64,000 nt of DNA from an uncultured Opitutia bacterium (lineage in GTDB: Bacteria > Verrucomicrobiota > Verrucomicrobiia > Opitutales > CAJWYM01), in the NCBI GenBank assembly GCA_913049555.1, contig CAJWYM010000001.1, positions 1 to 64,000 on the forward strand, read 5' to 3'. Numbering within the stretch: position 1 is the stretch's first letter; each line of letters begins with the position of its first letter. Under the pieces are notes generated by a model. It worked only from the letters and a program-made list of their open reading frames with translations. It was not told the origin of the DNA and made no database searches. Positions 28,329-35,899 of the stretch are shown in pieces. Both the position numbers and the translations under genes were made by a program.

Positions 28329-29138
28329 TTAATGAGATACTTTATTGGCTCTTATCTGAGCGTATCCATCTTTTATAGAGCTGTATGAGTCAAAAGCCTC
28401 AGCTGTAAGGTTGAAATAGAGATCCATTGTTGGAGGCCAATCGTTGATCGTCTCTAAACCATTGGATCCTATCCGGAGATCCTGTTCGGGCAACTGATTT
28501 AGAGGAGATAGGAAACCATCGCCAACTCTTCCTACTAAATCTCTCATGGAGGTGGGTCCAATCAACGGTAAAACAATATAAAATCCATGACCGATGCCGT
28601 AGTGACCCAAGGTTTGACCAAGGTCTTCTCCTGATGGATTGATACCCCATTGCGTTTGAGCTAAATTTTTTAGACCTAGGATACCAAACGTAGTGTTGAT
28701 TGCAAATTTCTGAGTTTCAAGTACTACCTTCTCTCCTTTCAACTGAATCGCTGAATTTACTAAGCGTATGGGATACTTAATATTCTCAAAGAAATTGGTG
28801 ATACCATCCCTAACTGGGTAAGGGAGTACATTTTTGTAGGTATCAGAAATATAAATGATCACACGAGTGTAAAGAAAATGATTGAAGTTAAAAACGGTCC
28901 TGTTGATTATTTCAAAAGGATCGGGGGTCAATGGTTGAGATTCGTATTCAAACTCATCATTCCATTCTTCGAGATCACAACTCTGAATGATTTCACAAGC
29001 GCTGTCTTTGAAAGCCAAGTTTTCAATGGATTTAAATTCCGGCAATATAATATTAGCTGCAGCGATCGAGTTTATGAAAACAAAGATTGAAAGTAAAATC
29101 CCTGAAAATACTAAATTTAATTTCTTCATGATGAACAA
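28329..29138 (-). CDS. mlaA: MlaA/VacJ family lipid-transport protein
   Basis: DPFEIINRTVFNFNHFLY, NTTFGILGL, DLGQTLGHYGIGHGFYIVLPLIGPTSMRD. Confidence 0.92.
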   Translation of the reverse strand: MFIMKKLNLVFSGILLSIFVFINSIAAANIILPEFKSIENLAFKDSACEIIQSCDLEEWNDEFEYESQPLTPDPFEIINRTVFNFNHFLYTRVIIYISDTYKNVLPYPVRDGITNFFENIKYPIRLVNSAIQLKGEKVVLETQKFAINTTFGILGLKNLAQTQWGINPSGEDLGQTLGHYGIGHGFYIVLPLIGPTSMRDLVGRVGDGFLSPLNQLPEQDLRIGSNGLETINDWPPTMDLYFNLTAEAFDSYSSIKDGYAQIRANKVSH

Positions 29139-29144
29139 TTGGTT

Positions 29145-29747
29145 CTACTCAGATTGGTTTACTTTTTTATCTAAAATCTCAATGAGTTTCTGAGGATTTC
29201 CTCTTCTTAAGATACTGTCAAATTGACTTCTGTAATTGGCTACCAAACTGACCCCTTCAATAATAGCATCGTATACTTGCCACTCGTTCTCAACTAAAGT
29301 CATCCTGTATACAACGGGTAATTGAGTATTTTCAATCGTTACTTTCGAGTGGATTTCTACTTTCTTTTCTGAAAGTTTTCTCTCTTGTTCAAAAGTAATT
29401 CCAGCTTCCCCAATGCCGCTAAAATTTTTAAGGTATGATTTTAGCAAAAGTTCACTAAAAAGATCCATGAAACTACTTAATTCGTCTTCGGTAAATTTTT
29501 TCCAATTTCTTCCTAAGGATCTTCTTGCTACCTGTTCAAAGGAAAATGAAGATTCTATGGCAGCACGAACCTCCAATAATTTTTTGGCCCGAACCTCCTC
29601 CGTCATCTCAGGATTAATTTCTTTCAACAACTTAATTACTATATTGACGGTAGATTCCACTTTGACTAGCGGGGCAATGGTTTCAGCTTCTAAACAGACA
29701 GAATGTAGATAAACTAGGACAAGGGCTATTAAGTTTCTTTTTTTCAT
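29145..29747 (-). CDS. mlaC: MlaC/Ttg2D family ABC transporter auxiliary periplasmic protein
   Basis: SFEQVARRSLGRNWKKFTEDE...LLLKSYLKNF, YRMTLVENEWQVYDAIIEGVSLVANYRSQF. Confidence 0.9.
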   Translation of the reverse strand: MKKRNLIALVLVYLHSVCLEAETIAPLVKVESTVNIVIKLLKEINPEMTEEVRAKKLLEVRAAIESSFSFEQVARRSLGRNWKKFTEDELSSFMDLFSELLLKSYLKNFSGIGEAGITFEQERKLSEKKVEIHSKVTIENTQLPVVYRMTLVENEWQVYDAIIEGVSLVANYRSQFDSILRRGNPQKLIEILDKKVNQSE

Positions 29748-29757
29748 AAAAGTGTAA

Positions 29758-30210
29758 TTATTTATCTAAACTACCAAATGCAAAATTGCTAATTATTTTT
29801 TCAATATCAAGCGCAGATTCGGTTTCAATAATGGTTTCACCGGGTGATAAAGTGATGCCTGAACCTCCAGGTGAAAGTGATAAGTATTTATCACCAATCA
29901 AGCCATTTGTTTTGACGGAAGCAATTGTGTCATCGTCAAGCTGAATTTCTCTACCAATTCTAATGGTCACAATGGCTTCAAAATTCTCTGGGTTAAGCTC
30001 TATTTTGTCGATTTTCCCTACGGAAACCCCAGAGATGTTAACATTTCCTCCCTCTTTAAGACCAGTAGCAGACATAAATCGTGCCGAGAGTGTGTAAGAA
30101 TCTTGTTTGAAAAGATCCAATCCTGCCATCTTAATCGATAAATACGAAATGGCAACGATACCACTCAATACAAATATTCCTACAATTAGTTCAATATTTT
30201 TTGTTTTCAT
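29758..30210 (-). CDS. mlaD: MlaD/MCE-domain lipid-transport protein
   Basis: N-terminal TM; MCE motif FMSATGLKEGGNVNISGVSVGKIDKIEL, TNGLIGDKYLSLSPGG. Confidence 0.93.
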   Translation of the reverse strand: MKTKNIELIVGIFVLSGIVAISYLSIKMAGLDLFKQDSYTLSARFMSATGLKEGGNVNISGVSVGKIDKIELNPENFEAIVTIRIGREIQLDDDTIASVKTNGLIGDKYLSLSPGGSGITLSPGETIIETESALDIEKIISNFAFGSLDK

Positions 30211-30214
30211 ATCC

Positions 30215-31438
30215 CTATGGGTTGGTTTTACAATTCATCTCTAGTAAGGGTTTCAACTTTTCTTTTTTAAAACTAAAGTCCCCGATGTTTGACATTTCAG
30301 TTACTGGTATAATTTGATAAAAAATGGAGAAATTGGGAGTCCTATATTGAATCTCATCTTTGCAAAAAATAGTATTATTATCCAGTCGTTCTTTAAGAGA
30401 AGCCAATTTTCTGTCAAGATCCTCTACATGTCCTGAAGGTGAAATATAAGTCAGGATTTGGCTTCTACTGATTTTAGAGCTCAAAGCTGATGGATGGTCG
30501 AAAATATCTTTGATGGAGTTCCCAAGAGTTTTCATGATGTGCTGAGAAGCAATTTCCCCCACAGACTTTACTATTTCAGAAAAATCCATCAATCGGATTA
30601 GAATAAAAGAAGCGTTGCTTTCCTGATTGGAATCCAACTTATTTTGAATTTCGAGTTTGAAATCTAGGGGATCTTTAAGTCCAGACAATTGATCAATCAA
30701 AAGATCGTGACTCTTCAGCAATTTATGGATAAGAGGATCGGTTTGTTGCTCTAATTCTAAAGGCGATCCAGAAAATATAATTTTCCCTTCTTCAAGGATA
30801 GCAACAAAGTCACTGACATAAAAAGCATCTGGTATATCATGACTGACAATTATAGAAGTAAAACCTAATTTTCTTTGATATTTAGAAATCAGGTCGAAGA
30901 CTGAGTTCCTTCTAATTGGATCTAATCCGGTTGTGGGTTCGTCAAATAATACAACCTCTGGGTCAGTCACCAAGGCTCTAGCGAGAGCAACTCTTCTTTG
31001 CATGCCACCTGATAGTTGTGATATGAAATTATTTCGAAACTCAGCAAGTTCTAATTGCTCTAAAATTGCTAAAACCTTCTTTTCTATTTTTTTGGGATTT
31101 AAAGAGGTAGTTTCAATGAGAGGAAGGGCTACGTTGTCAAAGAGTGTGTAAGAATCAAAGAGAGCATTGTGTTGAAACATGTAACTAAATTTATCTTTGA
31201 GTTTTTTCTTTTTTTTCCCTTTCAAAGATCCAAATGAGGTCCCTTTATAATAAATATCTCCTGAGTCAGGTTCTATAAGGCGGGCAACGTGCTTGAGCAT
31301 CACTGATTTGCCAGTTCCACTTTTGCCAATTACGGCTGTCATTTTACCCTCGGGAATGGAAAGGTTGATGCCATCTAAAATGGTTTTGTCCCCAAATTTT
31401 TTGACTAAGGATTTAAACTCAAGTAATGGCGTATCCAT
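30215..31438 (-). CDS. mlaF: MlaF-like ABC ATPase with ~150 aa C-terminal degenerate GGDEF-like extension
   Basis: GKSGTGKSVMLKH, SQLSGGMQRRVALARAL, DEPTTGLDPI; extension DQLSGLKDPLDF...FILIRLMDFSEIVKSVGEIASQHIMKTLGNSIKDIF. Confidence 0.9.
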   Translation of the reverse strand: MDTPLLEFKSLVKKFGDKTILDGINLSIPEGKMTAVIGKSGTGKSVMLKHVARLIEPDSGDIYYKGTSFGSLKGKKKKKLKDKFSYMFQHNALFDSYTLFDNVALPLIETTSLNPKKIEKKVLAILEQLELAEFRNNFISQLSGGMQRRVALARALVTDPEVVLFDEPTTGLDPIRRNSVFDLISKYQRKLGFTSIIVSHDIPDAFYVSDFVAILEEGKIIFSGSPLELEQQTDPLIHKLLKSHDLLIDQLSGLKDPLDFKLEIQNKLDSNQESNASFILIRLMDFSEIVKSVGEIASQHIMKTLGNSIKDIFDHPSALSSKISRSQILTYISPSGHVEDLDRKLASLKERLDNNTIFCKDEIQYRTPNFSIFYQIIPVTEMSNIGDFSFKKEKLKPLLEMNCKTNP

Positions 31439-32211
31439 TATAACATAAAAGAAGTAATAATATAGTCAGCTAACAGAATAGAAACACTAGAAAAAACGAC
31501 TGAAGAAGTGGCTGCTCTGCTTACTCCCGTTGCTCCAAAACCTTTATGGCGATGAATGAAGTAGCCTTGAAAACAACAAATTAAGGATGTTACAAATGCA
31601 AATACTAAAGACTTTGTAAAACCTCCTATAATATCATTCGCTGTAGTAGCGCTTTCGACTCGGAACCAAAAAGCTCCTTGATCCACCCCTAATAATTCAA
31701 CTCCAGTCAAATAGCCACCCCAGATACCGACTACGTTGAAAATGCCAGTCAACAATGGATACACTAAGATTGCTGCAATCAATTTGGGTGCAATTAGAAA
31801 AACAAGGGGATCGATATTCATTGTATTCAAAGCATCGAGCTGCTCTGAGTTTCTCATAATTCCAATCTCCGAGGCCATGGAGGAGCCGGCTTGCCCAACG
31901 ATCATAATCGCTGTCAAAACAGGTGCCATTTCCCGGATCAAAGATAGGGCAATTGCGGATCCCAACAAACCTTCAGATCCAAATTTAGCAAGGGTGAAAT
32001 AACCTTGTAATCCTAAAACCATTCCTGTGAAGAATGAAATCAAGAGAATTACAGGCAGCGTTTTTACACCGATCATGTAAATTTGCTCTATTAATTTAGT
32101 AAGGGAGAAACCGTAGGTCAAACCTCTGGAATAAGCTTGGAATCCAAATAGAGTCATCCTTCCTATTTCCTGAAGGATTAATATGCACCAAGCTCCCGTG
32201 TTACGAATCAT
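31438..32211 (-). CDS. mlaE: MlaE-like ABC transporter permease
   Basis: GMVLGLQGYFTLAKFG, LIREMAPVLTAIMIVGQAGSSMASEIG; overlaps mlaF start by one base. Confidence 0.93.
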   Translation of the reverse strand: MIRNTGAWCILILQEIGRMTLFGFQAYSRGLTYGFSLTKLIEQIYMIGVKTLPVILLISFFTGMVLGLQGYFTLAKFGSEGLLGSAIALSLIREMAPVLTAIMIVGQAGSSMASEIGIMRNSEQLDALNTMNIDPLVFLIAPKLIAAILVYPLLTGIFNVVGIWGGYLTGVELLGVDQGAFWFRVESATTANDIIGGFTKSLVFAFVTSLICCFQGYFIHRHKGFGATGVSRAATSSVVFSSVSILLADYIITSFML

Positions 32212-34182: not shown

Positions 34183-35160
34183 TTAAGGTTTCTCAGCTAT
34201 AAAGATCGCTCTACGCGGAGATGGATAGCCTTCGATGGTTTTGGTAATATCCTTAGGGTCTAAAAAGTCTTTTAGAGATTCAAACTTCATCCATTCTGTT
34301 TTTCTTTGTTCCTCAAAAGAAGTAACAGTTTCATTCACAACACGCACTTTTCTAAAGCCACATTTATTCAACCACATCCTCATAGCATCGGAGGACGGAA
34401 TGAACCATACATTTCTCATTTTCGCGTAACGATCTTTGGGTACTAAAATATCTTGTTCGCCGCCTTTGATGACGATTGTTTCCAAGACAACTTCACCTTT
34501 TGGTCTTAAAAGATTTTTTATCTGAATAAGATGGGCGATTGGATCTTTACGGTGATAAAATACACCCATTGAAAAAATAGTGCTGAAGGCTGGAAGGATA
34601 GAAGGTATGGAATCAATTCCCAGAGGAAGAACCGCGCATCGATCCGACTTTATATACTTGTTAGCTACTAAATATTGCCACACAAAAGCTAAAAATGGGT
34701 CGATCCCAAAAATGAGTTTTGGTTCTTGGCTTAGCATCCTCCAACAATGGTAACCGCTTCCACAGCCTATATCTAGAATCATCCCGTCTTTCAGTGGTTT
34801 TATATGTGAGGAAACACGATCCCATTTAAAGTCTGAGCGCCACTCAGTGTCCACTTCCGTTCCAAAAAAAGAGAAAGGTCCCTTTCGCCAAGGGTGAAAA
34901 CTCATCAAAATGTTGTGGAGTTTTTTATTTTCTTCAGGGGTCAGATCCGCACAGGTTCCGATTTCAAGAGTAGATTGATTTAGGTGAATTACAGAGGGCT
35001 TAGCATTGGGTAGCAATTCCCAAGCTTGATTCCATCGATCATAATGTCCGTTTGTTTTAGGAGAAAAAGCGTGAGTAATTTGTTTTTCTAATTTTGGGAT
35101 CCACTCATTTAAAGAAGTTTTTTCTAAATTTTTTATAAAGGAAGAGTAATTTTCAATCAT
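34183..35160 (-). CDS. cmoB: tRNA uridine(34) carboxymethyltransferase CmoB
   Basis: PWRKGPFSFFGTEVDTEWRSDFKWDRV, LDIGCGSGYHCWRM, SMGVFYHRKDPI. Confidence 0.95.
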   Translation of the reverse strand: MIENYSSFIKNLEKTSLNEWIPKLEKQITHAFSPKTNGHYDRWNQAWELLPNAKPSVIHLNQSTLEIGTCADLTPEENKKLHNILMSFHPWRKGPFSFFGTEVDTEWRSDFKWDRVSSHIKPLKDGMILDIGCGSGYHCWRMLSQEPKLIFGIDPFLAFVWQYLVANKYIKSDRCAVLPLGIDSIPSILPAFSTIFSMGVFYHRKDPIAHLIQIKNLLRPKGEVVLETIVIKGGEQDILVPKDRYAKMRNVWFIPSSDAMRMWLNKCGFRKVRVVNETVTSFEEQRKTEWMKFESLKDFLDPKDITKTIEGYPSPRRAIFIAEKP

Positions 35161-35164
35161 ACAA

Positions 35165-35899
35165 TTATTTTTGAGAAATAAAGGAAACGAAATTAAAACA
35201 TTGAAACCACTGCGTAGTAGTTTTGAATCCGGATCGGCTCAATCTTTTGTAATGATCTTCTTGGGTTTCAGGAACAAGAACATTTTCAAGAGCGGCTCGT
35301 TTTCTTGAGATTTCTAAATCTGAGTATCCCTGTTGTTTTTTGAATGCATGATGAATTTCCGCTTGTAAAAGATGCGTATCTTCATCTTTAAAAGCTATTT
35401 TTTCACTCAATATAAGAATGCCGCCTGGAAGTAATGAGGATGCGATCCTTTTTAGAAGACTAGACCGTTGGTTTTTTGGGATAAATTGAAGTGTAAAATT
35501 CAGTAAAACGATGGAGGCATTTATAAATTCAATATCTCTTACATCTTTACAAATCCAATGAACTGGGATGTCGGGATTTAAATCCTTAAATTTCTGGTCT
35601 TTTTCGCATTTTTTGATCATCTCAGGAGCACTGTCAATTCCATAAACATGAATACTTGGATCATCCAAACCCTGAGTGAGTGAAAGTGTGGAAGCACCTA
35701 GCGAACATCCAAGATCGTAGCAATTGGAATTCTTTTGTTGGTATTTGGACCCGAGTATTTTAATCATTTCAAGTGAATATTGATAACCTGGGACCGATCG
35801 ATGGATCATGTCTTCAAACACTTGAGCTACCTTTTGATCGAACTTAAAATTACCAAGGTTTGGCTCCTTTTTGTAAATATTATCAATAGAAGAATTCAT
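35165..35899 (-). CDS. cmoA: Carboxy-S-adenosyl-L-methionine synthase CmoA
   Basis: FDQKVAQVFEDMIHRSVPGY, YDLGCSLGASTLSL, NFTLQFIP; directly upstream of cmoB. Confidence 0.95.
   Translation of the reverse strand: MNSSIDNIYKKEPNLGNFKFDQKVAQVFEDMIHRSVPGYQYSLEMIKILGSKYQQKNSNCYDLGCSLGASTLSLTQGLDDPSIHVYGIDSAPEMIKKCEKDQKFKDLNPDIPVHWICKDVRDIEFINASIVLLNFTLQFIPKNQRSSLLKRIASSLLPGGILILSEKIAFKDEDTHLLQAEIHHAFKKQQGYSDLEISRKRAALENVLVPETQEDHYKRLSRSGFKTTTQWFQCFNFVSFISQK

Follow-up and report, generated by a model that had tools for sequence, protein, structure and literature searches.

How does an ATPase of the Mla lipid transport system come to carry a domain of a signalling enzyme, and what would such a domain do there? 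The question is raised by the mlaF gene in a 64,000-nucleotide stretch (hereafter the window) of a contig from an uncultured Opitutia bacterium (CAJWYM010000001.1, assembly GCA_913049555.1). A first-pass annotation of this stretch had described an MlaF-like ATPase core, followed by an extension to 407 aa that resembled a degenerate GGDEF domain, and had suggested that phospholipid transport could be coupled to a nucleotide or second messenger. The architecture stands as a real, rare domain fusion. The coupling does not fare as well.

The MlaF core and its operon

The mlaF gene is a single open frame of 407 aa with no interruption. Its ATPase core has all the expected ABC motifs intact, namely Walker A (GKSGTGKS), the Q-loop, the LSGGM signature, Walker B (LFDEP) and the H-loop (SHD). 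Among 198 NCBIfam matches the best was NF008809 (MlaF), covering residues 5-241 with E=1.9e-56, and the best PDB matches to the core were likewise MlaF chains (residues 10-241, E=2.5e-47). Because the NF008809 score of 191 bits is far under the equivalog cut-off of 441, the protein is a distant MlaF.

The neighboring genes point in the same direction. The window's operon is compact, with all genes on the reverse strand in the order mlaE-F-D-C-A (Table 1). The mlaF ATG overlaps the mlaE stop codon by one base, and four bases separate the mlaF stop from the mlaD start. Co-encoding with MlaE, MlaD and MlaC was found here as well as in two related loci, L002 and L121 (order E-F-D-C), which are described below. 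The STAS protein MlaB, the partner of MlaF in E. coli, is absent from the window's mla operon, and a domain search gave no STAS_2 match anywhere in the window's genome. A partnership with MlaB, as in E. coli, is not known to be universal among MlaF systems. Elsewhere in the window (34183-35899, reverse strand) are two adjoining methyltransferase genes, candidates for cmoB and cmoA of tRNA wobble modification.

Table 1. Coordinates of the mla genes and of the parts of MlaF in the window, and of MlaF genes with an unrelated extension in other genomes
Feature	Position	Strand	Basis
mlaF, ABC ATPase with degenerate GGDEF-derived C-terminal domain	30215..31438	-	ORF, Pfam, NCBIfam and PDB matches
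MlaF ABC ATPase core, residues 1-240	30719..31438	-	motifs, NCBIfam, PDB
GGDEF-derived extension, residues 245-407	30215..30706	-	Pfam, joint profile
Pfam-matched part of the extension, residues 248-375	about 30314-30697	-	PF00990
S324-R325-S326-Q327, where cyclases have the GG(D/E)E signature	30458..30469	-	alignment with cyclases
mlaE-like permease	31438..32211	-	sequence and operon order
mlaD-like MCE protein	29758..30210	-	sequence and operon order
mlaC-like periplasmic lipid carrier	29145..29747	-	sequence and operon order
mlaA/VacJ-like lipoprotein	28329..29138	-	sequence and operon order
MlaF proteins of family f21 with ~140-aa extension	L020 1129-2265; L032 1477-2613; L028 1477-2610; L040 1093-2250	-; +; +; -	

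Descent and distribution of the extension

Beyond the ATPase core, the protein continues for about 163 residues. When this extension was searched alone against 24,736 Pfam models, the sole match was PF00990 (GGDEF; E=5.9e-5, 23.3 bits), which spans profile positions 3-132 of 161 and lies 0.5 bits under the curated cut-off of 23.8 bits. Weak matches to the window protein were also given by the LapD and CsrD models (E=5.5e-4 and 3.3e-3, respectively). Taken by itself, the window sequence has a GGDEF likeness that is real but borderline, suggesting descent rather than proving it.

The same fusion, for which the first-pass annotation had recommended a search in other operons of this type, is present in two further genomes. 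One of them (G002) belongs to another family of the same order, and shows the same arrangement of genes, with an MlaF of 430 aa. The other (G899) belongs to another class of the same phylum, and encodes a 420-aa MlaF between mlaE and mlaD-mlaC. Against GGDEF, the extensions of these proteins score 50.2 bits (E=3.1e-13; L002 in G002) and 61.5 bits (E=1.1e-16; L121 in G899), both clearly over the cut-off, and because these relatives share the architecture of the window's protein, its GGDEF assignment is firm. The window extension matches that of G002 (E=3.3e-10 in a small set, 5.3e-5 in the whole genome). A profile built from the three extensions retrieved 39 PDB sequences at E<0.01 (best E=4e-10), by name nearly all GGDEF or diguanylate cyclase proteins. 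Through the two homologues and the joint profile, the extension can be recognized as a descendant of a GGDEF domain, related over most of its length to cyclases such as PleD and WspR. The joint profile also matched, at E=0.002, an ammonium transporter with a GGDEF-like domain (PDB 8qj3, 8qpf), which similarly combines a transporter with a GGDEF-like stretch, but is a member of the ammonium channel family and not an ABC ATPase. AlphaFold, run on the single sequence, returned a mean pLDDT of 32.5 for the extension and 37.2 for the full protein, both too low for a usable model.

Compared with one another, the three extensions score 12-30 bits, but against real cyclases they reach at most 11 bits; the real cyclases score 79-101 bits among themselves. 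Therefore, they appear to form a GGDEF subfamily of their own. In a tree of 81 MlaF cores with long branches, a single origin of the three fusions was neither shown nor rejected (p-AU 0.33).

These three were the only MlaF-GGDEF fusions among roughly 990 sampled genomes. The samples, which overlap, covered the order (373 genomes), the class (384), the phylum (388) and the class to which G899 belongs (198). None of 14 ABC ATPase loci in the scanned genome contigs matched over the extension, a scan of viral contigs gave no match to it, and no description of such a fusion was found in the literature searched. The contig that carries the G899 fusion is 7.9 kb long, in an assembly of 7.3 Mb with 86% completeness, and the host assignment of this fusion is for this reason less certain. 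At this locus, a gap of about 190 bases (L121 1213-1405) separates mlaF and mlaD, which are nearly adjacent in the window. G027, from the same family as G002, has an MlaF without the domain, and other relatives have short tails after the core, often with an FRDS motif. The large open frames of some other genomes, which reach 615 aa, owe their length to upstream read-through, and their tails beyond the core are of 3-36 residues.

A different C-terminal extension, of about 140 aa, follows the ATPase core at the same point in MlaF proteins of family f21 (G020, G138, G174 and G054). It was at first taken as homologous, because of the same start position and a similar SxxxLxxxxxGL pattern. However, it had no Pfam match and no PDB match of note, and hhalign gave probabilities of 0.1-0.7% when it was compared with the fused set and of 0.1% for real GGDEF domains, so that no relation to GGDEF is detectable.

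Lost sites and the second-messenger question

To compare functional sites, the domains of the window, G002 and G899 were aligned with three real cyclases, with the roles of the positions (metal, guanine, I-site) presumed to be those of PleD-type cyclases. In the window, S324-R325-S326-Q327 takes the place of the signature (SRSQ for GGEE), as the first-pass annotation had recognized in its reading of ISRSQ. Furthermore, D-L-D has become R-L-M, the guanine-contacting Asn is a Val, and Gly-Asp is Ser-Gln. At the same positions, the G002 domain has GQNQ, T-I-S, Ala and Ala-Gln, and that of G899 has SDDM, K-I-N, a retained Asn and Gly-Gln. The metal-binding Asp pair and the GG(D/E)EF loop, both needed in an active diguanylate cyclase, are lost in all three proteins. 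At the guanine-contacting positions the change is complete in two of the proteins and partial in the other. Gln in place of the guanine-contacting Asp is common to all three, which fits common descent. The RxxD of the I-site, located five residues before the signature in cyclases, is missing throughout, and with it the usual site of a c-di-GMP receptor. With every catalytic and signal-binding site that was checked lost in the window copy, its domain is predicted to be catalytically dead. Of the three domains it has also degenerated furthest, and it may be in decay.

Compared with PleD/WspR-type cyclases, these domains differ in the three lost features and in being joined to an ABC ATPase. Closer in kind are the degenerate GGDEF proteins LapD, FimX, CsrD and PopA, in which an inactive GGDEF domain has a non-catalytic use. 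Most proteins of this type also possess an EAL domain, or else an I-site, and none of them is known to be joined to an ABC transporter ATPase.

The genomic context differs between the carriers. The window's genome encodes two real GGDEF proteins, a REC-GGDEF and a REC-GGDEF-EAL; the former (L087 1021-2013, forward strand) has RFAGDEF, thus AGDEF instead of GGDEF. In the 97% complete genome of G002, a search for GGDEF domains found none besides the one on MlaF, so that c-di-GMP production is unlikely in this organism. As the fusion is kept there nonetheless, it is unlikely that it acts on c-di-GMP. Together with the loss of the loop, the Asp pair and the I-site, this weakens the idea that lipid transport is coupled to a second messenger, which is not supported by our results.

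A proposed role in the assembled transporter

In E. coli, MlaF ends in a tail of about 25 residues, which reaches around the partner subunit and is in contact with MlaB. This C-terminal extension promotes dimerisation and its removal abolishes function, which a GCN4 dimeriser largely restores, and both tail and MlaB are required for assembly (PMC7367683). Other ABC ATPases have C-terminal domains that pair up underneath the ATPases (PMC7367683). The MlaF of the E. coli MlaFEDB complex (PDB 6xbd, 6xgy) and the window's protein share the ABC ATPase subfamily, the LSGGM motif and the mla operon partners. They differ in what follows the core: an unstructured tail plus MlaB in E. coli, GGDEF-derived residues and no operon mlaB here. 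The C-terminal domains of MetN (ferredoxin-like), and of MalK and ModC (oligonucleotide/oligosaccharide-binding), are likewise folded, follow the ATPase core and can associate with each other below the dimer (PMC7367683), but belong to different domain families, and the MlaF extension has no known ligand-binding site.

To the reading that we prefer, we give an even chance: the extension would be a repurposed, non-catalytic dimerising or regulatory domain, which does the job of the E. coli "handshake" tail and perhaps of MlaB. In the assembled transporter, two such domains would be placed below the ATPase dimer and touch each other, by analogy with several other ABC transporters whose C-terminal domains do so. 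The pair would stabilise or regulate the dimerisation of MlaF and its grip on MlaE. The domain would stand in for the handshake tail, and perhaps for MlaB, with neither synthesis of c-di-GMP nor its binding at the canonical sites. The presence of a short tail at the same place in relatives without the domain argues for such a role, as does the lack of mlaB and STAS_2 noted above for the window. STAS_2 proteins do occur elsewhere in the G002 genome, and therefore a replacement of MlaB may not be general. The stronger version, that a GGDEF domain devoid of cyclic-nucleotide chemistry became the dimerisation and control module of MlaF and replaced both MlaB and the handshake tail, is possible but doubtful.

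Alternatively, a once useful fused domain could be decaying without a present role, furthest along in the window's genome. Of the three, the window copy indeed has the lowest GGDEF score, with a Pfam match that stops well before the end of the profile; the family-mate G027 does without the domain, and the fusion is rare. Against this, about 160 codons have stayed open at 37% GC (chance ~1e-5, estimated from base composition), the pattern is preserved well enough to be detected by Pfam, and Gln, Ile and Gly have been retained at the same sites in three distant lineages. We consider a relic unlikely.

Quite unlikely, in our judgement, is a ligand sensor, a domain that has lost catalysis but would gate MlaF by binding a small molecule, such as GTP or c-di-GMP, at an altered site. 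Degenerate GGDEF domains can serve as receptors, as in PopA, PelD and LapD, the window's genome has its REC-GGDEF and REC-GGDEF-EAL, and G899 retains the Asn at the guanine position. Yet the absence of RxxD, Asp pair and loop in every member, the uniform change of the guanine Asp to Gln, and the lone GGDEF domain of G002 all speak against a sensor. A chance resemblance to GGDEF is highly improbable, since, although the window sequence alone is just under the Pfam cut-off and a profile from only three real cyclases fails to separate its extension from shuffles, the corresponding MlaF extensions of G002 and G899 are far over that cut-off, the window extension matches that of G002, and the joint profile retrieves GGDEF structures.

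For the regulation of the Mla transporter, the putative dimerising domain is relevant as a ready comparison provided by nature, an MlaF with an extra domain at the tail position in an operon without mlaB. With G002 as the carrier that has no other GGDEF domain, these fusions would also be a further example of a domain taken from a signalling enzyme and put to use apart from the signal.
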